Below are positions 28,966 to 40,416 of a stretch of DNA of 51,105 bases, in pieces (the stretch's first letter is position 1; the number at the start of each line of letters is the position of its first letter). The stretch covers positions 1 through 51,105 of the forward strand of contig PHAA01000025.1 of NCBI GenBank assembly GCA_002840245.1, in the 5' to 3' direction. The DNA is from Firmicutes bacterium HGW-Firmicutes-15 (GTDB lineage: Bacteria; Bacillota; Syntrophomonadia; Syntrophomonadales; Syntrophomonadaceae). The notes beneath the pieces are model-generated. The model did no database searches. It worked only from the letters and a program-made list of their open reading frames with translations, and had not been told where the DNA came from. A program made the position numbers and the translations under genes.

Positions 28966-31900
28966 GTGATTATTGGCAGGATTGATGATAATTCCGCTGA
29001 AAAGAATACTGAGCTTGATCATCTGGATCAATTAAACGCTAAATTAAGCAATATCCTTCGTAAGAAAGATGAAAATATGTTGCTGATTGAAGAGTTGAAT
29101 CAGCAAATAGCTCTTTTAAAGAATGAATTAGACTTATATTCATTAGCTGTTAAAGGAACTCCCAATGATAGAATAAATGACAAAAGCTTTGATGCTACGA
29201 CTCCAACCGAAGTAATCAGATCTATGGCCAATCCCACTAGTGGTTCCAAGAGGATTACTTACTTAAACCGTTTTATTTCCAAGAAATCCTCTCCCGCTCC
29301 ATCTTCCTCACAATTCGATACCAAAGCGCTAGAGGAATCAGGCGACGGTACCACTGATAAAACTGCGACTCCCATCATTACAATGAAACTAGTTGCCTTT
29401 TTGAATGCCAAACATTATATGGTTTTCGGCGACAAAAGGGGCTCTACTCATGGCCATTCCTGGCAATTCCAGATTGAGGCTGAAGTATCAGTCGAAGATA
29501 GTTCCTTCATTAGATTTGAAGATCTGGAACGACATATTGGTAAAATTCTCGAACCTTATCAAAGAAATGTCTTAAATGAAATATCACCTTATAATTTAAT
29601 TGAACCGCTCACGGAAAATATTGCAGCCCTGTTTTTCAACCGACTTGATGATGATTTTAAACAGTTTAACGTCAGGTTAATTAGATTAACAGCCTGGGAA
29701 AATCCTACGAAGGGAATAGAGATTAGCCACAGGCTTAATCACTTCTTTTCTACTGGTGAAAATACAAATAAACCTACGCCTATTCAAATTGAAAGTTTGA
29801 ATCAAGCCTCAGCAACCTTGGAAGTAGCTGAGGAAAGTAGTAATGAGGACTCAGGGATGCCTAATCAGGATGCAGCTAATGATGAAGAAGAGCAGGAAGC
29901 TTGTACACCAGGTTCTTCTTCCAATAATTCATCAGATTCGGGCATTGAACATATAGATGAAACAGTAATGACAGACTCTGACTCAGTAGTTAATGAGAAA
30001 GAAAAGGAAGACCCAATAGAAAACAAGCAAGAAATTGTTGAAAGTGATAGTGATTCAACTTCGGGAGATAATGATCAACGCAATTATAAATGGTGGCATT
30101 ATGTTCTGGCAATATCACTTATTATAGGAGTCGCCGTCTGGGCCTATTGGCCGATATTGACAGCACCCCTCGATAAAATCTATCCCTATGGATCTGATGC
30201 TTGGTGTCATTTGTTTAAAGCTGATTTTTTATCCAAGGAAATTCTTAAAGGTAATTATTACCCGCAATACTATACGTATTGGCACAATGGCGTGCAACCC
30301 TTTAGATACTGGGCACCGTTGACATATTACATCATCGCCTTAATAAATCTCCTTACTAAAAATGTTTTTGTTGCGCTCAACTATTATCTTTTCGGTTGCG
30401 CTATACTGGGTGGGATATGCTGGCTGATTTTTTCTAAACGGATCGGTATATGGCAAGCAGCATTAGGCGGTATTATATGGGTTGTGTGGTTAGATAACAT
30501 TAAAGAAAGCTTTCTATCAGGAAATTATCCACGAGTGCTGACTATTGCTCTACTGCCTTTGTTGTTAGAACTTTTTATTAAAACTATGAAGGAAGAAAAA
30601 AAGGTTATTTATTTTCTCTTTGTTGCACTGCTAATTTGTGCTATAGTGCTTTGTCATCCAATGATTGCTGCAATTTACGGCGTATCCTTACTTTCTTTTG
30701 CCATTTTATTGTGGTTTTGGGGAGACATTTCCTTGAAAGGTTTAATTAGGGGAGGACTTGCTCTTTTTTCTGGACTTCTCATCTCCTCATGGTGGCTATT
30801 ACCGGCTTTAACTGGAGGTGGTGCAGGTTTTAGTGATGAATCCACCCTTAGTCCTACCCGTTTTATTGCTGCTTCAATTTCTTTCAATCCCCACATAAGA
30901 GGATCAATAAACTACTGGGGTATTAGCCTATTAGCACTTATACTGATTTTTGTTTTATCTTGGCGTTATCGGTCAACTTGGGCCAAGAGTTTATTTATAT
31001 CCGGAATATTCTATATTATCCTTACTTTCCCTGAATTCAAATTTTTACAAAATCTTTTACCATTAAATAATTTATTGTGGCCCAAAAGGTTTTCTAGTTT
31101 TTGGTCACTTGCTTTACTTTTATCTGCTTTCTCCCTTAATGCCCAATACCAATTCTCGTTTTTTAAACGAAAACTGTCGACAAAAGCAGTGTTAGCAATA
31201 GTTGTATTTTTCTTTTTAGCCGCAGATAGCTTCTTCTCTCTTCGTGTTCTAGCCCATACCACACCTTTTCCCAATACTATCCTACAATGTATTGAAAGTA
31301 TTAAGCAATATCCGGGATGGAAAGTAGCTACTCTTGATCTTAGCCGCTTGGGTTCAACTCCTTCCTATCTACTACCTACCATTGCAAACCGTGAGCAGGT
31401 TTACGGCTGGGCGTGGCAGGGCGCAACAACAGCTGGAAATGTAATGCTTATTAATACAGCAATGGAGAATAACTGGTATCCTTATATTTTTCAACGACTG
31501 GATCGCATGGGAAGCACTGATCTAATGGTTAAAGAAAATACAATTATAGGTTTATCTACTTTCGGAGAATACGCTTCCCTGGCAGGGTATGAGAAGGTAT
31601 TTTCAGATCAAAAAACCAGTCACTGGCATGGTCTTGATGGCCCTTATATTACCGTTAATCGAAAAAAAGGTATTGCTATCGGAAAATATGCAAGCAACTA
31701 TGCTTTGCAATTCCCTTCTTTGGAAATTGGAAGTTCATTAAAAATTGATGACTATAACATAGAAGAACTAAAGCAATACAAAACCGTTGTTCTAACTGGA
31801 GCTTCATGGTCTTCACAAGCAAAAGCAGAAAAAATGATTATACAATATGCCCAAGCAGGGGGCCGGGTTTTAGTTGATCTTACAGGCTTTCCCGTAAATG

Positions 31901-32574
31901 TTATGGCACGACAGCCTGCCTTTTTAGGTGTGTTCGGTGAAACAATAACAATAAACAAACCACTCACAATATCATCAAAAGATACGGAAATGAAACTTGA
32001 GCCGTTTGCTCTGGAGAACTGGGTTTGCGTTACTCCTCAACCAATAGATCAAATTTTGATCAGCTATAAGCATTACGGTAATGATGCGGCACTACTGGGT
32101 TCTAAAATTATAAGCGATACCCCCCCTATATACTTTCTAGGAGCTAATATAGCTTACCATTCATTCTTAACCCATGATAAAACAGCCATGAATATTTTAC
32201 AGGAAACCCTCGGATTATCAAGCGATTATGAGCAAGCTGAAATTATTCCCTTGCAAGAATACCATGTAAACAAAGATGGCTATTCAATGAGTTATGAAAC
32301 TAGTAATAGCATAGAAGCCATTTTACCTGTAGCAGCACTAGAAGGTATGAAGGCTCGTGTTGATGAGCAACTCATATCCACGCGCACTTATGAAAACTTA
32401 ATTATGGTAAATTTACCTGCAGGAAAGCATACCATTACTCTGGAATTAGTCGATGCTCCTATATTTATTTGGAGTAAATACTTATCCTTGTTTTCAATAT
32501 TATTTATTACTAGTTATATAGTTTTTATTAAACGCAGAAAAAAGGGGGGGAGTTTATCTGACGAAAAACCTTGA
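28966..32574 (+). CDS. Giant membrane protein with PTPS-like domain (XrtG-locus type)
   Basis: 1202 residues in four parts. Residues about 15-60 are coiled coil. About 140-258 is a 6-pyruvoyl-tetrahydropterin-synthase-like domain: zinc-type histidines in FLNAKHYMVF and STHGHSW and a Glu-rich C-terminal half, but the catalytic Cys four residues before HGH is Arg. An acidic low-complexity linker follows (about 265-370). From about 376 a polytopic region of 10 or more membrane segments begins, with a first loop (YPYGSDAWCHLFKADFL) like GT-C glycosyltransferases or the PTPS-related membrane family; then an outside domain (about 780-1165) and a last membrane segment with a basic tail. GTG start, AAGGAG upstream. 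Domains of this PTPS-like family are known near XrtG exosortases in Firmicutes, as here. Likely a surface-glycan glycosyltransferase or its partner; the reaction is unknown. Confidence 0.8.
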   Translation: MIIGRIDDNSAEKNTELDHLDQLNAKLSNILRKKDENMLLIEELNQQIALLKNELDLYSLAVKGTPNDRINDKSFDATTPTEVIRSMANPTSGSKRITYLNRFISKKSSPAPSSSQFDTKALEESGDGTTDKTATPIITMKLVAFLNAKHYMVFGDKRGSTHGHSWQFQIEAEVSVEDSSFIRFEDLERHIGKILEPYQRNVLNEISPYNLIEPLTENIAALFFNRLDDDFKQFNVRLIRLTAWENPTKGIEISHRLNHFFSTGENTNKPTPIQIESLNQASATLEVAEESSNEDSGMPNQDAANDEEEQEACTPGSSSNNSSDSGIEHIDETVMTDSDSVVNEKEKEDPIENKQEIVESDSDSTSGDNDQRNYKWWHYVLAISLIIGVAVWAYWPILTAPLDKIYPYGSDAWCHLFKADFLSKEILKGNYYPQYYTYWHNGVQPFRYWAPLTYYIIALINLLTKNVFVALNYYLFGCAILGGICWLIFSKRIGIWQAALGGIIWVVWLDNIKESFLSGNYPRVLTIALLPLLLELFIKTMKEEKKVIYFLFVALLICAIVLCHPMIAAIYGVSLLSFAILLWFWGDISLKGLIRGGLALFSGLLISSWWLLPALTGGGAGFSDESTLSPTRFIAASISFNPHIRGSINYWGISLLALILIFVLSWRYRSTWAKSLFISGIFYIILTFPEFKFLQNLLPLNNLLWPKRFSSFWSLALLLSAFSLNAQYQFSFFKRKLSTKAVLAIVVFFFLAADSFFSLRVLAHTTPFPNTILQCIESIKQYPGWKVATLDLSRLGSTPSYLLPTIANREQVYGWAWQGATTAGNVMLINTAMENNWYPYIFQRLDRMGSTDLMVKENTIIGLSTFGEYASLAGYEKVFSDQKTSHWHGLDGPYITVNRKKGIAIGKYASNYALQFPSLEIGSSLKIDDYNIEELKQYKTVVLTGASWSSQAKAEKMIIQYAQAGGRVLVDLTGFPVNVMARQPAFLGVFGETITINKPLTISSKDTEMKLEPFALENWVCVTPQPIDQILISYKHYGNDAALLGSKIISDTPPIYFLGANIAYHSFLTHDKTAMNILQETLGLSSDYEQAEIIPLQEYHVNKDGYSMSYETSNSIEAILPVAALEGMKARVDEQLISTRTYENLIMVNLPAGKHTITLELVDAPIFIWSKYLSLFSILFITSYIVFIKRRKKGGSLSDEKP

Positions 32575-32614: not shown

Positions 32615-33568
32615 GTGTATAAAGGCAAGACAGTTGCTGCGGTCATTCCAGCTCATAATGAAGAGCTTCTTATAGGAAGAGTAATAGATACCATGCCTTC
32701 CTATGTGGACAAGATTATTATAGTCGATGACTGCAGTACCGATCAAACTGCTCAAATAGTTCATAACTACCAAGTAGAGTTTCCAGAACGTATATATTTG
32801 CTCCAGCATAAGATTAATCAAGGGGTCGGGGGGGCCTTTACTACCGGGTATAAATGGTGTAGGGATCATGAAATGGATATTACTGTAGCAATGGACGGTG
32901 ATGGGCAGATGGATCCCGATGATTTGCCTGCTCTTCTTGATCCAATTGCAAATGACGAAGTAGACTATACAAAGGGCAATCGTCTGTTCTCAGGCAAAGC
33001 GTGGAAAGAAATTCCCCGTATTCGTTATCTGGGTAATGCAAGCCTTTCTTTGTTAACAAAAATTGCTTCCGGGTACTGGCATGTAGCTGATTCGCAATCT
33101 GGCTACCGGGTTGCCAATTTGAAAGTCTTGAAGACATTGAATCTTGATAATATCTATAAAAAGTATGGCATGCCGAATGATATGCTGGTAAAATTAAATA
33201 TTCATAATTTCCGAGTACGGGATGTACCAATTAGGGCGATTTATAACATCGGTGAAAAGTCAGGATTCAAACCTGTACGTATTATACCCTCTTTATCGAG
33301 GTTGATAGCCAAATTGTTCTTTATCCGCATGGTACAGAAATACATAATTCGGGATTTCCATCCCTTGATATTTTTTTACTTTTTAGCCATATTCCTTCTC
33401 GGATTGTGCGGACCAGTTCTGACAATAAGGTTAGCTATCATATGGGTTATAAATGGTCATATCCCTTCAATTAATGCGCTAGCACTTATGATGGTTACAA
33501 TCGCCGGGATACAGTTTCTTCTGTTTGCTATGTGGTTTGATATGGAAGATAATCGAGATTTACGCTAA
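32615..33568 (+). CDS. Family 2 glycosyltransferase, polyprenyl-phosphate sugar synthase-like
   Basis: 317 residues. The N-terminal catalytic domain resembles dolichol-phosphate mannose synthase: VAAVIPAHNEELLIGRVIDTMP, IIVDDCSTDQTA, NQGVGGAFTTGYKWC, and the metal-binding MDGDGQMDPDDLPALL. Two membrane segments close the protein (about residues 248-275 and 282-308). Expected to load a sugar from a nucleotide donor onto a polyprenyl phosphate on the inner face of the membrane, feeding a GT-C-type enzyme such as the upstream 1202-residue protein. GTG start after a G-rich site; 40 bases after the upstream gene. Confidence 0.87.
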   Translation: MYKGKTVAAVIPAHNEELLIGRVIDTMPSYVDKIIIVDDCSTDQTAQIVHNYQVEFPERIYLLQHKINQGVGGAFTTGYKWCRDHEMDITVAMDGDGQMDPDDLPALLDPIANDEVDYTKGNRLFSGKAWKEIPRIRYLGNASLSLLTKIASGYWHVADSQSGYRVANLKVLKTLNLDNIYKKYGMPNDMLVKLNIHNFRVRDVPIRAIYNIGEKSGFKPVRIIPSLSRLIAKLFFIRMVQKYIIRDFHPLIFFYFLAIFLLGLCGPVLTIRLAIIWVINGHIPSINALALMMVTIAGIQFLLFAMWFDMEDNRDLR

Positions 33569-33658: not shown

Positions 33659-34015
33659 TTGGCACAAACTCTTCCCTTAATATTTATCGATATAATTCTT
33701 CTTGTCCTGGGGCAGGTTCTTTGGAAGATGGGGGTAAGTAGAATAGGTGTTCTCCAATTAGATAATGTACTCACTGCACTAACATCCCCTTTAATCTGGA
33801 CAGGCATTGGTCTATATGGACTTGCTACAATTATATGGCTTATTGTACTATCTAGAGCAAATCTTAGTACAGTATATCCTATGCAGAGTATGGCCTATGT
33901 TTTTGGGATGATGGGAGGCATCTTCTTTTTTGGGGAAAGAGTCCCAATTATTGGATGGGTAGGTATTGCATTTATTCTACTGGGTGTTTTTCTTACCAGT
34001 ACTGGGCTGAAATAA
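33659..34015 (+). CDS. SMR/EamA-type small membrane protein (ArnE-like)
   Basis: 118 residues with four membrane segments, the layout of small multidrug resistance and of the ArnE/ArnF flippase subunits. The TVYPMQSMAYVFGMMGG stretch and the closing GWVGIAFILLGVFLTSTGLK are typical of the EamA half. Next to a polyprenyl-phosphate glycosyltransferase the most likely role is moving a lipid-linked sugar across the membrane, rather than drug export. TTG start with AAAGGATG upstream. As a single half-size protein it should act as a dimer. Confidence 0.75.
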   Translation: MAQTLPLIFIDIILLVLGQVLWKMGVSRIGVLQLDNVLTALTSPLIWTGIGLYGLATIIWLIVLSRANLSTVYPMQSMAYVFGMMGGIFFFGERVPIIGWVGIAFILLGVFLTSTGLK

Positions 34016-34069: not shown

Positions 34070-34678
34070 ATGGCAACAGACCCGGATAGATTCCAAGGCC
34101 TCTCGTATTATAAGTATCATACCAACAATGTAATTTACAACAGATTGGTAAGGTCTTTTAAGAATGATATGAAAGAATTGTTAAATAGTATTGTTTTTAA
34201 GCGAGTTCTTGAAGCTGGTTGCGGTGAAGGTAAAATTACTGACCATATTAACACATGCTATCCTCAATTAGAACTTTTAGAGGGATTCGATATTAATAGT
34301 GATTTAATTCAAACAACCCAGGATTTATTAACTAACATTTCATTTAAGGTGGCTTCAATATATGAGCCTCCGTATCCTCCTGATTCATTTGATTTGGTTG
34401 TTTGTTGTGAAGTCCTAGAACACCTGGAAAAACCAGAAATCGCATTAAATCAGATATTTAATATTTCATCAAAATATATCCTGTTGAGTGTTCCCAATGA
34501 ACCAATCTGGAGTATTGCGAATATGATTAGAGGTAAATATATAAAGAGTTTCGGTAATACTCCAGGCCATATTAATCGTTGGTCAGTTAATTCTTTTCTT
34601 ACTTTAGTCGAAGATTATGGACATATTATAGGCATAAGAAAACCTTTCCCATGGACAATGGTGTTGTTAGAAAAATAA
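34070..34678 (+). CDS. Class I SAM-dependent methyltransferase
   Basis: 202 residues. Rossmann motifs: VLEAGCGEGKITDHI (SAM-binding motif I, about residues 44-58), FDINSDLI (motif II acidic residue) and FDLVVCCEVLEHLEKPEIAL (motif III/IV with the EVLEHL block). This pattern is typical of enzymes methylating small molecules, sugars or quinones. In this locus a lipid-linked sugar or a surface polymer is a reasonable target, but that is inference. ATG start with GAGGGGAG upstream. The stop abuts the convergent dehydrogenase gene with no gap. Confidence 0.85.
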   Translation: MATDPDRFQGLSYYKYHTNNVIYNRLVRSFKNDMKELLNSIVFKRVLEAGCGEGKITDHINTCYPQLELLEGFDINSDLIQTTQDLLTNISFKVASIYEPPYPPDSFDLVVCCEVLEHLEKPEIALNQIFNISSKYILLSVPNEPIWSIANMIRGKYIKSFGNTPGHINRWSVNSFLTLVEDYGHIIGIRKPFPWTMVLLEK

Positions 34679-35974
34679 TTATAGCACTTCAACCCTTTCA
34701 CTACGGAACTGTTCAAAGGCATTACGAGTATCAAATATTATATTGGAATTTTGGAAGATAAAATTATAGTCAAATCCGCTATGAGGAGTAACCATTAAAA
34801 CTACATCTGAAGCATTTAGTATTGATTTATTTAATACCTCAATGCTCCTAACTTCCGAACCATTCTGATCAGTAAAAACCGGCACCAACGGATCATAATA
34901 ATTTATATTTGAGCCATATTTCTTAAGCTTTTCATATAGCATTAAAGCGGGTGATTCCCTAACATCATTAACATCTTTCTTATATGCAATGCCAAGCATA
35001 AGAACATTTGAGCCATTCAATGCTTTTTTTTGCTTGTTCAAAATACGAAATAACTTTTCCACCGTAAAATCAACCATATTTTCGTTTATATCAGATGCCA
35101 GTTCAATCGATCTATTGTAAAAACCAAAGTGCTTTGCTTTCCAAGAGAGATATACAGGATCTAGTGGTATGCAGTGTCCGCCTATACCCGGACCTGGGTA
35201 AAAAGGCATAAATCCGAATGGCTTGGTCTTTGCCGCATTTATTACATTCCAAACATTAATACCCATTTTGTCACACATCATAGCCATTTCATTTACAAAG
35301 GCAATATTTACAGCTCGAAAAGAGTTCTCCAGTAACTTGCACATTTCAGCCTCTTCGCAACTGTTAACCACAACTGTCTGATCAACTATTAAAGAATAAA
35401 AGGCCTCAGCAAGTTCAGTAGATTTCTCTGATGCTCCGCCAATTACTTTAGGAGTATTACGAGTTTTATAAATCGGATTTCCCGGGTCAACCCTCTCTGG
35501 ACTAAACGCTGCATAAAAGTCAATATCTAATCTGCAACCAATTAATTCCAATTCGTTTACTATTAATTCTCTAGTAGTTCCAGGGTAAGTTGTCGATTCC
35601 AGGATAATTAATTTGCCCGGTTCTAAATACTTTTTTATACTTTCCATTGCTTTAAGAATAAAACTAATATCTGGTGTTTTAGATTTTGAAAGTGGTGTAG
35701 GAACCGCTATATCAATTATGTCGACATCTCGCACACAACTGTAATCCACTGTTGCATGAAGTCTATTATTTAGAACGCATGCTGATAACTCCTCATCACT
35801 TACATCCTGAACATATGATTGAGCATTTCTTATCATTTCGATCTTCTTTTCATCAATATCAATGCCCAAAACATTGAATCCAGCCTTGGCGGCTTCAACT
35901 GCTAGAGGCAGTCCAACATATCCAAGACCAATTATTGCTATTTTTGCTTCTTTACTACGTATTTTCTCCAACAT
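34679..35974 (-). CDS. UDP-sugar 6-dehydrogenase (UDP-GlcNAc/ManNAc type)
   Basis: NAD-dependent four-electron oxidation of a UDP-hexosamine to its uronic acid. 431 residues: N-terminal NAD fold IAIIGLGYVGLPLAVEAAKAG, central SFSPERVDPGNP-like stretch (here AAFSPERVDPGNPIYKTRNTPKVIGG), the catalytic Cys in GPGIGGHCIPLDPVYLSWKAK, and the C-terminal domain with GIAYKKDVNDVRESPA. The SPERVDPGN and GGHCIPLDP motifs match the WbpA/WecC group rather than UDP-glucose dehydrogenase. It is transcribed towards the sugar genes to its left and probably provides a uronic-acid precursor for the same polymer. Confidence 0.9.
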   Translation of the reverse strand: MLEKIRSKEAKIAIIGLGYVGLPLAVEAAKAGFNVLGIDIDEKKIEMIRNAQSYVQDVSDEELSACVLNNRLHATVDYSCVRDVDIIDIAVPTPLSKSKTPDISFILKAMESIKKYLEPGKLIILESTTYPGTTRELIVNELELIGCRLDIDFYAAFSPERVDPGNPIYKTRNTPKVIGGASEKSTELAEAFYSLIVDQTVVVNSCEEAEMCKLLENSFRAVNIAFVNEMAMMCDKMGINVWNVINAAKTKPFGFMPFYPGPGIGGHCIPLDPVYLSWKAKHFGFYNRSIELASDINENMVDFTVEKLFRILNKQKKALNGSNVLMLGIAYKKDVNDVRESPALMLYEKLKKYGSNINYYDPLVPVFTDQNGSEVRSIEVLNKSILNASDVVLMVTPHSGFDYNFIFQNSNIIFDTRNAFEQFRSERVEVL

Positions 35975-36074: not shown

Positions 36075-37139
36075 TTATTCTGAGGCATATTTAAAACCAT
36101 CGCGCATAGTTGTTACTAATCCATCGCTTTCAGGCATTTGGCTTAGCCATTCACAAAGTTGAGTAAAATTAGAAGCATCCCAATACCACATATCATTGCC
36201 ATAACCTAAATCACCGGGATTCAGAATACTGTGTAATTCGAGAATACACCATTTTTTGTTTTTTATTGCATCCTGGAGAATTGGTAATAATTGTGTAAAG
36301 GTAGTTTTTGATGTAATTATACTGGCTGTAAGCATATATTTATTATTTGGAGGATAAACCATATTGTTTAAGACATTAATATTAGTAGAACCAACAGCTA
36401 TTCCTGACCTTGCACAAGATAATCCTGCATCTGCAAACCACTTACTATTAACAGATATATTAGCCGAATTTACGGTATTATTAGGTGAGGCAAAAGTTTC
36501 TACTTTACCATCTCTAGTTATACCCCATTGATTTAATTTAACTATACAGGCATTAAGGTCAGCTTCTGTATTCATATGTTGGTCGCCATGTGCTGCAATC
36601 TCAAATCCCAGACTATTGCAATATTGTAACTGAGTAATTGAACAAGCCCCATCTGCCCCACTCTTAGTACTCCAACTAGGATTGTACGATCCATCTGTCC
36701 ACCCCGTTATTGCAAAGGTAGTTGCTGTAAGATGATATCTCTGCATGATAGGTACTGCTACCCTGGCAAAATCTTTGCGGGCATCATCAAAAGTAAGCGT
36801 TATCATACCTTGCCCTTGAAATTTCACTTTTGGGTTAGTTGTAACCTCTGATTCTAAATAAGCTCTAGCGGCATCTCCTGGAATTATAATATTTGCTGCT
36901 TGGACACCCTGATCCGATTTAACATCAGCTCCAAGTGTTTCACTAATGACCACACTGGGAACCATAACCCTGTCATGTTTAATATTTGCTGCTTGGATAT
37001 CCTGATCCGAGTTAACATCAGCTCCAAGCGTTTCATTAATGACCCCACTGGGAACCATAACCCTGTCATGTATTAGCGGTACATCAGTATTAACGACTGC
37101 TATTATAATGAAAATAGAAATTACCAACAACATACCCAA
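36075..37139 (-). CDS. Membrane-anchored polysaccharide deacetylase family protein
   Basis: About 354 residues. An N-terminal hydrophobic segment (signal peptide or anchor), a spacer containing a duplicated 31-residue unit (residues 24-85), then a NodB-type domain from about residue 110: motif 1 ITLTFDDARKDF and motif 2 AAHGDQHMN supply the Asp-His-His metal site. Acts outside the cell on an N- or O-acetylated glycan. The first in-frame conventional start is a TTG at 37139, without a ribosome site. In the same frame AGAGGG (37184-37179) lies nine bases before an ATT at 37169, which would add LYNHRNALLLG and give a proper positively charged signal-peptide start; initiation at AUU is possible. 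Diverges from the XrtG operon. Confidence 0.83.
   Translation of the reverse strand: MGMLLVISIFIIIAVVNTDVPLIHDRVMVPSGVINETLGADVNSDQDIQAANIKHDRVMVPSVVISETLGADVKSDQGVQAANIIIPGDAARAYLESEVTTNPKVKFQGQGMITLTFDDARKDFARVAVPIMQRYHLTATTFAITGWTDGSYNPSWSTKSGADGACSITQLQYCNSLGFEIAAHGDQHMNTEADLNACIVKLNQWGITRDGKVETFASPNNTVNSANISVNSKWFADAGLSCARSGIAVGSTNINVLNNMVYPPNNKYMLTASIITSKTTFTQLLPILQDAIKNKKWCILELHSILNPGDLGYGNDMWYWDASNFTQLCEWLSQMPESDGLVTTMRDGFKYASE
36888..37070 (-). repeat. Tandem duplication in deacetylase spacer
   Basis: Two adjacent in-frame units of 93 and about 90 bases (37070-36978 and 36977-36888) encode HDRVMVPSxVIxETLGADVxSDQxxQAANI twice. I count about six differences over 90 aligned bases, so the duplication is fairly young. 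It lengthens the linker between membrane anchor and catalytic domain. Confidence 0.9.
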
Positions 37140-37445: not shown

Positions 37446-38123
37446 ATGGTCCGAATTAATAAATGGTTTGTAGGATTTATTTCCCTGATGTTAATACTCC
37501 TAATCTATCCTTGCACAGCCTTCGCAGCTAATATCCAGATAGATGGTAATTTTGATGATTGGCAAGGGAAAGCTTCTATTGCTGATCCTACTTATGATGC
37601 CTTTCCCAGCGGCGATATAGTTAAGTTTTATTGGGCAACTAATGAAGGTGATTCTAACCTCTATTTTATGATAGATCGGCTTGGGTTCGGGGAGCATAAT
37701 GACCCCCTTCCTGTTACCTACCGCCTAAACCTGGATATTAATGATAATGGTATATACCACAATGGGATCGACCGTTATGCACTTATTACCTATGCTCCTT
37801 TTTTGGATGGTTTAATCACAGTTATGGTTTTCAAAGGTAATGATCAGTGGATAAACTACTATATAGGCAACTGGGGTGAAGGAGGCCGAGATGGAGGGCA
37901 GAAGTGTGAGTTTTCCATCCAGAGTGATGATTTGAGTAATTACCCAGGCCAGTCTTTGAGAATGTATGTTACTAGTTATGGTCTTATAGAAGACCGCGTT
38001 CCTGATACCGGTGATATACAATGGTCCCCGATACCGATTCTGGGTACGTGGGTACTTGGGGGAATCTTTGTACTTGGATTAATATTTGCATCTATTAAAA
38101 TAGTGAGAAACAAAACAACATGA
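37446..38123 (+). CDS. Secreted protein with C-terminal sorting-like tail (Firmicu-CTERM type)
   Basis: About 225 residues. An N-terminal signal peptide (VRINKWFVGFISLMLILLIYPC..., predicted cut after AFA) is followed by a beta-rich domain opening IQIDGNFDDWQG, a pattern shared with DOMON/CBM9-like domains. The C-terminus is tripartite: SPIPILGTW, a hydrophobic helix, and a short basic tail IKIVRNKTT. That layout and the exosortase gene next door fit the Firmicu-CTERM class of predicted XrtG substrates. The frame also opens at a GTG (37434), but the ATG at 37446 has GAGG six bases upstream. The stop overlaps the xrtG start. Carbohydrate binding is only an inference from the fold pattern. Confidence 0.78.
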   Translation: MVRINKWFVGFISLMLILLIYPCTAFAANIQIDGNFDDWQGKASIADPTYDAFPSGDIVKFYWATNEGDSNLYFMIDRLGFGEHNDPLPVTYRLNLDINDNGIYHNGIDRYALITYAPFLDGLITVMVFKGNDQWINYYIGNWGEGGRDGGQKCEFSIQSDDLSNYPGQSLRMYVTSYGLIEDRVPDTGDIQWSPIPILGTWVLGGIFVLGLIFASIKIVRNKTT

Positions 38124-38707
38124 TTTATGGGTCACTATCTATAGTATTGTGGATATTAATTGCATATTACCTTCATAATCACCGTATCTGGCTGTTTTAT
38201 TATATCTGGACAGCAGTTGGTTTTACCTTCATTGCCATTCTTCTACTACGCTCATCTAACGTGGAATATGCTGTGGAACAAGCAACCGGCTTATTTCTCC
38301 ATTATTCGCTGGGATTAATTGGTATCAAGACATTTATTTTCGACAAAGCTCCAGGAACGGTGCTGGTTTTACTGGCTCTCGAAAATAGCTGGACTTGTAT
38401 TGACATTGATATTGAATGCTCAGGTCTACTTGAATCCTGTGTTCTCTTGGGCCTACTAATGTTTTATCCCACCTTGACTTTGGCAAAAAGATTCCAATAT
38501 GCCTGTATCGGGGTCATCTCTCTGTTCGTGGTCAACCTCATACGCCTGATTACAGTTGTATTAACCCTTAACTTCGGGGGGCGAGATACTATGTTCATCG
38601 CTCATACCCTGGTAGGTAGACTGGTTTTTTTTGCTCTAATAATTATGGTCTATTGGTATCTATTTACTCGCCCATCATTAGCTAAGGTTAGGAGAAGAGT
38701 GGAATAA
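38120..38707 (+). CDS. xrtG: Exosortase family protein XrtG
   Basis: 195-residue polytopic membrane protein with about six membrane segments. It shows the exosortase catalytic pattern: Cys100 in IECSGLLES, Arg142 in NLIRL and His162 in IAHTLVGRL, matching the Cys/Arg/His triad of exosortases/archaeosortases. These are predicted transpeptidases that process C-terminal sorting signals; the short Gram-positive form beside this type of glycosyltransferase is XrtG. ATG start overlaps the stop of the upstream candidate substrate; its own stop overlaps the next gene (TAATG), so the three genes are tightly coupled. The activity is predicted, not shown, for this subfamily as far as I know. Confidence 0.87.
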   Translation: MIYGSLSIVLWILIAYYLHNHRIWLFYYIWTAVGFTFIAILLLRSSNVEYAVEQATGLFLHYSLGLIGIKTFIFDKAPGTVLVLLALENSWTCIDIDIECSGLLESCVLLGLLMFYPTLTLAKRFQYACIGVISLFVVNLIRLITVVLTLNFGGRDTMFIAHTLVGRLVFFALIIMVYWYLFTRPSLAKVRRRVE

Positions 38708-40071
38708 TGCTTGAATTATTTATGGAAAGAACTATAGCTTTTCTTCTGTTCTGGGGCATCTGGATGCTGGCTCCACTGGTTATTGATTTGACTACAGCAG
38801 CATTATATCTTTCAATGGTTATATTATTTCCTGAAAAAAAGGAACGCGAAGCCCTTTTAGAGTTAAATTTTTTGCCTTTGGTTTCTGTTGTTATACCTGT
38901 TCACGATTCATCCGAGACGCTATATGCTTGTCTAAAATCTGTAGTAGATCAAAAATATCCTCTGGAGAAATTACAAATAATTTGCATCAACAATGGCAGC
39001 AGTGATAATAGCTTTAATGTGTTTGGTAAATTCCAGAATGACTACCAACACGCAAGTCTTAGTTGGATTAATATGGACCGGTCCGGTAAATCTATAGCCC
39101 TCAATGCAGGTATATATATGATTAAGGGTGATTATATAATAAATGTAGATTCGGATGCTTGGTTAGATGAGTTTGCTGTCCTACGAATGGTAGAAACCTT
39201 TGAACATGACTTAACCCTGGTTGCAGCCACAGGCGCTATACATATTGATAAAAAGCTTGGAGAGCAGACTGGATTGATGGATGTCCTTCACTACTGTGAA
39301 GAAATTGAATACTTGGTAGCTTTCAACGTTGGGAGAAGGTACCAGAGTATCACCAATAACCTTTATACCCTCGCAGGAGCTTTTTCAGCGTTTCGAAGGG
39401 ATATCCTCCTTAAATCCTTTCAATATTCGGAAAGAACTGTATCAGAGGATACTGATTTGACATTTCATATTCGTAATTCAGCACAAAAAGACAATGGTCG
39501 ACTTGGCTGTGTATCTTCTGCCATAGCTTATGTTGAACCGATAGATTCGTTTAGCAAGCTCTATTCCCAAAGAGTTCGCTGGCAGCGTGGGCAAATTGAA
39601 GTTACTTCCCTATATGATCCTGGAAAAATTGGCTTCCTTCGTTCACTCAGGAGCACTAATGGGCGAACTCTGGTAGTAGATCATACACTAGCCTTTTCAC
39701 GCTTAACTTGGACATTTTTAATTCCTTTCCTTTACTTCCTAGGTTACCCTCTGAACTTAGTTATGGCAGCCTTCGGTGGAATGTATATTTGTTACCTCTT
39801 GTTGGATTTCCTATACTATCTGGTAGCTGTTAAGGAGTCTTCTGGGCCATATAAAACGGGAATTAAGAAAATATGGTGGGTAGTCTTTTTCTTACCTATA
39901 TTTCGTTCTATCACATATTGGTTTCGTATATCGGGAATTCTCTTAGCTATCACCGAACAAAGCAGTTGGAAAGTGGAAAATCCTATCGCACAATTGACGG
40001 AAGCGATAAAAGCTAGTCTAAAACATATGGTTAATAAATTCAGAAAATATTACAGCCGGATTAAATTTTGA
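38707..40071 (+). CDS. Exosortase G-associated family 2 glycosyltransferase
   Basis: 454-residue membrane glycosyltransferase. N-terminal membrane segments (residues 8-40), then a cytoplasmic GT-A domain: VSVVIPVHDSSETLYACLKSV, INNGSSDNS, GKSIALNAGIYMIKGDYIINVDSDAWLDE with the DxD metal motif (148-150), the acceptor-site SEDTDLTFHI, and the QRVRWQRGQ (QxxRW) motif of processive enzymes such as cellulose and hyaluronan synthases. Further membrane segments follow (about 335-420). It matches the glycosyltransferase clade known to travel with XrtG. It probably extrudes or builds a polysaccharide, perhaps the one to which the sorted protein is joined. The start overlaps the xrtG stop. Confidence 0.87.
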   Translation: MLELFMERTIAFLLFWGIWMLAPLVIDLTTAALYLSMVILFPEKKEREALLELNFLPLVSVVIPVHDSSETLYACLKSVVDQKYPLEKLQIICINNGSSDNSFNVFGKFQNDYQHASLSWINMDRSGKSIALNAGIYMIKGDYIINVDSDAWLDEFAVLRMVETFEHDLTLVAATGAIHIDKKLGEQTGLMDVLHYCEEIEYLVAFNVGRRYQSITNNLYTLAGAFSAFRRDILLKSFQYSERTVSEDTDLTFHIRNSAQKDNGRLGCVSSAIAYVEPIDSFSKLYSQRVRWQRGQIEVTSLYDPGKIGFLRSLRSTNGRTLVVDHTLAFSRLTWTFLIPFLYFLGYPLNLVMAAFGGMYICYLLLDFLYYLVAVKESSGPYKTGIKKIWWVVFFLPIFRSITYWFRISGILLAITEQSSWKVENPIAQLTEAIKASLKHMVNKFRKYYSRIKF

Positions 40072-40385: not shown

Positions 40386-40416
40386 TAATTAGGGTTTGCT
40401 ACCCAAACCCTAATTA
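40386..40416. promoter_or_regulatory. Perfect 13-bp inverted repeat, possible operator
   Basis: TAATTAGGGTTTG (40386-40398), a five-base gap CTACC, then CAAACCCTAATTA (40404-40416). It sits between the divergent coiled-coil gene and the GerMN lipoprotein gene, with no U-run after it on either strand, so an operator for the divergent genes is likelier than a terminator. Confidence 0.5.

Follow-up and report, generated by a model that had tools for sequence, protein, structure and literature searches.

A 51,105-nucleotide stretch of contig PHAA01000025.1 from Firmicutes bacterium HGW-Firmicutes-15, referred to here as the window, carries on its forward strand a locus for XrtG, an already catalogued Gram-positive exosortase family. 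The core of the locus consists of a gene for a secreted protein (the CTERM protein, 37446–38123) with a signal peptide, a beta-rich domain and a tripartite C-terminal tail, the putative partner or substrate of XrtG; the gene for XrtG itself (38120–38707, 195 residues); and the gene for an XrtG-associated, polysaccharide synthase-like family 2 glycosyltransferase (GT2; 38707–40071) with D-x-D, E-D-T and Q-x-x-R-W motifs. The TGA stop of the CTERM gene (38121–38123) overlaps the XrtG ATG (38120) by four bases, as ATGA, and the XrtG TAA (38705–38707) shares one base with the glycosyltransferase ATG (38707), bearing out the claim of an earlier note on this DNA that three coupled genes meet in stop/start overlaps at 38120 and 38707. 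The genes lie exactly where that note placed them, but the region was drawn too narrowly, as a gene at 28966–32574 also belongs to the system. Taken alone, the window locus is intact and unexceptional for a known system; what makes it interesting is a series of gene fusions and cysteine losses in related loci.

The middle gene scores 108.4 bits (E 4e-31) against the XrtG model TIGR03110, above the curated cut-off of 102.75, and 45.3 bits (cut-off 23) against the exosortase/archaeosortase superfamily model TIGR04178; a whole-genome control with TIGR03110 gave matches in none of 14 well-known genomes, and in the genome of the window XrtG is the sole match to the exosortase/archaeosortase families in a genome-wide profile search. 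The earlier description of an exosortase homologue with Cys100, Arg142 and His162 therefore holds: the gene does match an exosortase model, its identity is XrtG, the residue numbering is correct, and all three residues are invariant in a 28-row alignment (A3). Cys100, predicted to be catalytic, is encoded by TGC at 38417–38419 (motif E-C-S-G), Arg142 at 38543–38545 (N-x-x-R) and His162 at 38603–38605 (A-H-T). An AlphaFold2 model of the protein (mean predicted local distance difference test score, pLDDT, 91.5) comprises helices at residues 2–20, 24–43 and 47–66, a beta hairpin at 71–95, and helices from 98 to 114, 121–153 and 155–194; neither a sequence search nor a fold search found a solved structure that resembles it. 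Basic loops, together with a fused form in which an exported domain precedes helix 1, suggest that the N-terminus is extracytoplasmic; in the model, Cys100 at the start of a helix and Arg142 and His162 near the turn at 154 would then face the outside. Sortases are the usual anchoring enzymes of Gram-positive bacteria, and the earlier remark to that effect is fair, but XrtG is already catalogued as an exosortase family of this group, and it occurs in Chloroflexota as well. No description of XrtG biochemistry was found in the literature searched.

The evidence that the CTERM protein is the partner of XrtG comes from its architecture and position more than from profile scores. Against the Firmicu_CTERM model TIGR04145 it reaches only 19.4 bits, short of the cut-off of 50, the match being to the N-terminal portion of that model, and such weak matches occur in 8 of the 14 members of an alignment of CTERM proteins (A4), the window protein included. 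The tail is nonetheless clear by eye and can be aligned with those of relatives: SPIPILG, a hydrophobic helix, and the basic end KIVRNKTT. Gene position, export signal and the motif-helix-basic tail all agree with the partner genes that stand beside other XrtGs, so the earlier proposal of a secreted partner with a C-terminal tail stands on its tail and its adjacency to xrtG, although the Firmicu_CTERM cut-off is missed; the window protein also differs from that family in its motif, SPIP as against GTSTGP. IPTL-CTERM tails are similar in style, and one member of A4 matches that model. The putative sorting motif, G-D-I-Q-W-S-P-I-P (residues 189–197, encoded at 38010–38036 on the forward strand), lies immediately 5' of the transmembrane tail; in A4, P195 and P197 are invariant, and D190 and W193 are nearly so. 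PEP-CTERM systems typically sort many substrates. The window genome holds just one CTERM homologue and one exosortase-family gene, indicating a dedicated pair rather than a general sorting system, and the numbers of XrtG and CTERM genes are equal in 12 other genomes. A carbohydrate-binding (CBM9- or DOMON-like) identity, suspected from the I-D-G-x-F-x-D-W start of the CTERM domain, found no support in Pfam, in a PDB sequence search (best match 2j44, E 0.042) or in a fold search; the window protein had no Pfam match and no confident fold match.

The third gene matches TIGR03111 at 386.5 bits (E 1.5e-115; cut-off 363.95), confirming that it encodes a Q-x-x-R-W-type glycosyltransferase of the clade that accompanies XrtG; among 60 relatives, matches to this model above the cut-off occur solely in genomes that have XrtG. 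It shares the D-x-D, E-D and Q-x-x-R-W motifs and the C-terminal hydrophobic segments of the PgaC/IcaA and hyaluronan-synthase-type GT2 enzymes, but falls in the distinct clade TIGR03111. TIGR03112, the third known partner of the XrtG system, is matched at 81–85.5 bits (cut-off 69.35) by a 6-pyruvoyl-tetrahydropterin-synthase-like (PTPS-like) domain at 29389–29712 (residues ~142–254). This domain is part of a single forward-strand open reading frame (ORF; 28966–32574) that continues into a multi-pass PF10131 (PTPS_related) membrane protein, probably GT-C-like, whose PF10131 part scores 456 bits. All three families of the known system (TIGR03110, TIGR03111 and TIGR03112) are thus represented above their curated cut-offs; the window differs in that the PTPS-like domain shares its ORF with PF10131 and that 4.9 kb separate it from the CTERM gene. 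Homologues of PTPS/PF10131, XrtG and the TIGR03111 glycosyltransferase are grouped in most other XrtG loci, PTPS/PF10131 directly upstream of the CTERM gene in those of the nearest relatives, and a CTERM-type gene lies upstream of XrtG in nearly all unfused loci. As a separate observation, the PTPS/QueD-like domain at 29389–29712, set in a glycan-related membrane protein, keeps HYM...HGH, possible zinc ligands.

A complete XrtG system has been reported in Lactiplantibacillus plantarum (CTERM LP_RS09090, Xrt LP_RS09085, GTF1-2; PMC12854382). It has the same gene set as the window and was over-expressed together with cell-wall genes; it differs in having two glycosyltransferases, and the passage that reports it gives no biochemistry (PMC12854382).

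Cysteine-less fusions of the partner to XrtG

In a sister clade made up of Syntrophomonas and Peptococcaceae, the CTERM domain is fused to XrtG in one ORF of ~400 residues. The CTERM half ends in D-x-x-W-x-P-F-P and runs straight into XrtG helix 1, the CTERM helix and basic tail being absent. The fusions recur across many genomes, among them one that consists of a single contig (G026) and that of the JCM strain of Syntrophomonas wolfei subsp. methylbutyratica, and a member of the GTDB genus of the window itself (G001) carries a fused form with Asn at the site of Cys100, so that presumably active and inactive forms occur inside one GTDB genus.

The cysteine is present in 61 of 61 distinct unfused XrtGs, whereas the 15 distinct fused sequences that cover the site have Asn (11), Ser (3) or Cys (1). 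The Cys-less set comprises 13 related sequences in one clade and a frameshifted fourteenth (L051); E-C-S-G is replaced by E-N-S-G or E-S-S-G, and by E-S-S-A in L051. The codons at the site are TGC or TGT for Cys, AGT for Ser and AAT or AAC for Asn, which fits a path from Cys through Ser to Asn, since TGT, AGT and AAT are each one base change apart. Much else is retained. Arg142 and His162 are present wherever a distinct sequence, fused or unfused, covers them; E99 and S101 are invariant, where covered, in the 14 Cys-less fusions; and the D, the W and the P-F-P of the motif are likewise invariant in these 14, against a mean identity of 67% in the domain and 53% in the linker that follows. The glycosyltransferase of the fused lineage keeps D-x-D, E-D-T and Q-x-x-R-W, and two fused proteins (L037 and L030), though without the Cys, still score above the TIGR03110 cut-off.

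The Cys-less fusions are monophyletic (support 99/95) and sister, with weaker support (84/67), to the unfused clade of the window; an unfused, Cys-bearing Peptococcaceae sequence (L031) falls outside both. The Cys-less fusion has one evolutionary origin, and the 14 cases are therefore not statistically independent. The stem of the fused clade is so short, at 0.8% of the total tree length, that fusion and Cys loss are unlikely to have met on it by mere chance, although the argument is a rough one. Omega for the XrtG part is 0.08–0.14 between close fused pairs and 0.08–0.11 between comparable unfused pairs, so the domain is maintained under purifying selection even without its Cys.

Two further fusions involve the same partner. 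In a Lachnospiraceae metagenome bin, one ORF (L078), a fusion of independent origin, matches both TIGR04145 (94.8 bits) and TIGR03110 (194.4 bits) above the cut-offs and keeps the Cys, which rules out a strict rule that fusion means Cys loss. In Thermincola and relatives (L044:4043–7981, L046, L020, L022, L023 and L024), it is the PTPS/PF10131 protein that carries the CTERM domain, at its C-terminus; these fusions keep the sorting tail, and the adjoining XrtG has its Cys. Long high-GC frames that precede XrtG in Tepidiforma and others (L045, L048) had also suggested fusions but are just open frames.

What XrtG may do with its partner

The role of XrtG can be tested directly through the natural series of fusions and Cys losses. 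The explanation we favour, tentatively and at close to an even chance, is that XrtG docks and tethers a dedicated one-to-one partner at a glycan-synthase complex, and that the fused lineage keeps a pseudo-exosortase as a scaffold. The CTERM protein would be exported and parked in the membrane by its tail, where its W-x-P-x-P motif would be recognised by XrtG at the outer membrane face. In the form found in the window, Cys100, aided by Arg142 and His162, could cut at the motif and hand the partner on, its chemistry turning a membrane-tailed precursor into a final tethered or transferred state. The essential outcome would be to keep the beta-domain of the partner close to XrtG and to the two glycosyltransferases (TIGR03111 and TIGR03112/PF10131), where it may help to make, export or decorate a surface polymer. 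In the sister lineage, the gene fusion would provide a permanent link, a peptide bond in place of the step, after which the tail and the Cys would be lost and XrtG would persist as a scaffold.

Several observations argue for docking. The partner is fused to both of its neighbours, XrtG in one lineage and PF10131 in another, which points to physical association. The motif is conserved where the known nucleophile is missing, which a docking element explains better than a cut site alone. By known Cys chemistry, a partner fused to a Cys-less XrtG can be neither released nor transferred, yet locus, motif, Arg, His and glycosyltransferase are conserved in the Cys-less fusions. This weakens, as the essential function, the earlier suggestion that a protein is joined to a glycan or set free. 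We infer that the window form cuts its partner, that the motif docks on XrtG, that the proteins form a physical complex and that the partner has a role in glycan assembly; the gene content, intact residues, one-to-one occurrence, fusion, Cys loss, motif retention and purifying selection are observed. If the proposal is true, selection has retained a protease-like enzyme to hold, without catalysis, what was once its substrate, which would make it a clear example of an enzyme turned scaffold and would argue that the partner works within the glycan-synthesis machine and is not cargo. From the Cys-less fusions one would predict that a tether between partner and XrtG can stand in for catalysis, and their fusion point suggests where the cut would fall.

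Other results weigh against docking and tethering. The Cys-less fusion is a single event, and the Cys-bearing form of the window may work differently; the unbroken presence of the Cys in unfused sequences shows that catalysis matters there, and L078 is a fusion that has kept it. In the predicted structure of the fused protein, the CTERM part is a beta domain of low-to-medium confidence, the motif and linker (residues 187–201) have pLDDT below 50, and the motif is not placed, so the model gives no support to docking on the active site. Nor was the fold of the CTERM domain identified by the Pfam, PDB sequence and fold searches described above.

The main rival is sortase-like anchoring: the neighbouring glycosyltransferases would make a glycan or glycolipid, to which XrtG, having cut the CTERM protein, would pass it by way of a thioester at Cys100, and the fused lineage would simply have given this reaction up. 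We regard this as possible, though doubtful. It accounts for the presence of Cys, Arg and His in every unfused sequence and for genes that always lie beside glycosyltransferases, and no other reading has so near an experimental precedent within the superfamily. Archaeosortase A (ArtA) of Haloferax volcanii is a polytopic Cys transpeptidase acting on a tripartite C-terminal signal, as XrtG would be; it requires Cys173, Arg214 and Arg253, and has a lipid-attached substrate (PMC9263693). ArtA differs, however, in processing more than one substrate, in having Arg as its third residue where XrtG has His, and in its reported lipid attachment (PMC9263693). Against anchoring are an acceptor that is not known, a dedicated one-to-one partner unlike many-substrate PEP-CTERM sorting, and the conservation of motif, Arg, His and glycosyltransferase after the Cys was lost.

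Two further explanations are each unlikely. One is that the fused forms are still active and continue to cut in cis, with Ser, Asn or the neighbouring Ser101 as nucleophile, or by cyclisation of Asn. The motif, Ser101, Arg and His are indeed conserved in fused forms, 3 of the 14 have Ser, a possible nucleophile, and L078 is an existing fusion with Cys; but Asn, found in the other 11, is chemically unlike Cys or Ser, and many unfused Lachnospiraceae sequences, forming a large group, have Gly in place of Ser101, which is thus not a universal catalytic residue. The other, to which we give a similarly small chance, is that XrtG is a self-tethering transpeptidase, which would join the CTERM protein to the extracytoplasmic N-terminus of XrtG itself, or to a partner there, the product being a glycan-synthase subunit. 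The fused proteins look like an encoded product of this reaction, with the whole sequence retained as far as P-x-P and all that follows replaced by XrtG helix 1; the scissile bond would lie just after W-x-P-x-P, and the Cys, no longer needed, would have been lost.

That XrtG is a release protease, freeing the CTERM protein from its membrane tail into the extracellular space, is quite improbable: the window form does have the tripartite tail and an intact Cys, but the fused-lineage protein is tethered through XrtG helix 1, lacks the known nucleophile and still belongs to a locus under purifying selection. The notion that the Cys-less copies are decaying pseudogenes or assembly artefacts is already disfavoured and has very little left to it. 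In its favour are two damaged fusions, L035, which is cut short next to prophage-like genes, and the frameshifted L051; against it, fused copies are intact in many independent assemblies, a single-contig genome among them, with omega ~0.1.

Neighbouring genes and variant loci

Between the PTPS/PF10131 gene and the CTERM gene lie, on the forward strand, a polyprenyl-phosphate-sugar synthase-like GT2 of DPM1/PpgS/AglJ-like type (32615–33568; PF00535 86.8 bits, AglJ/PpgS-like matches below cut-off) and a small EamA/EmrE-type (ArnE/ArnF-like) protein, a putative lipid-sugar flippase subunit (33659–34015; ArnF 37.1 and ArnE 33.8 bits, both below cut-offs). Genes of these two kinds, EmrE-like and polyprenyl-phosphate-sugar-synthase-like, are often near related XrtG loci (several loci). 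They are followed by a class I methyltransferase (34070–34678, forward; PF13489 59.9 bits), whose tie to the XrtG system is uncertain, and, on the reverse strand, by a nucleotide-sugar dehydrogenase that may supply sugar (34679–35974; TIGR03026 426 bits, above cut-off) and a neighbouring secreted polysaccharide deacetylase (36075–37139; PF01522 36.8 bits). A 13-bp hairpin 3' of the glycosyltransferase gene (40386–40416, forward) is a possible terminator from a pattern scan that found 2 such hairpins against 2.4 expected; the scan for promoter-like sites near the operon, with 7 found against 12.9 expected, was uninformative.

Related loci vary in other ways. In L068:8548–11460 and in L067, one protein combines the XrtG-associated glycosyltransferase with a sulfatase/LtaS-like domain of PF00884 (scanned in L068), which hints at polymer decoration. 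An in-frame fusion of XrtG to the glycosyltransferase, with an internal deletion in the latter, occurs in L010/L047 from a Thermincola ferriacetica BL5 bin and is possibly a decayed locus or an assembly artefact. A large Lachnospiraceae group (L055–L058, L060, L062, L064–L066, L069–L072 and L075) has E-C-G-G where the window has E-C-S-G, and in its loci an additional gene separates the CTERM-type gene from XrtG.

Among the fused loci, one genome (G011) has two copies, on contigs C126 and C132 (L006 and L012), whose synonymous divergence (dS) is 0.06 in the XrtG parts and 0.26 in the CTERM parts, as in gene conversion. In Desulforamulus putei DSM 12395 (L035:4677–8627), phage-tail-like genes, a reverse transcriptase (PF00078) and an ORF with an FGE-sulfatase fold lie immediately upstream of the truncated CTERM-XrtG fusion; the last of these ORFs resembles the target of a diversity-generating retroelement, and the arrangement is as if a prophage had inserted into the fused gene.

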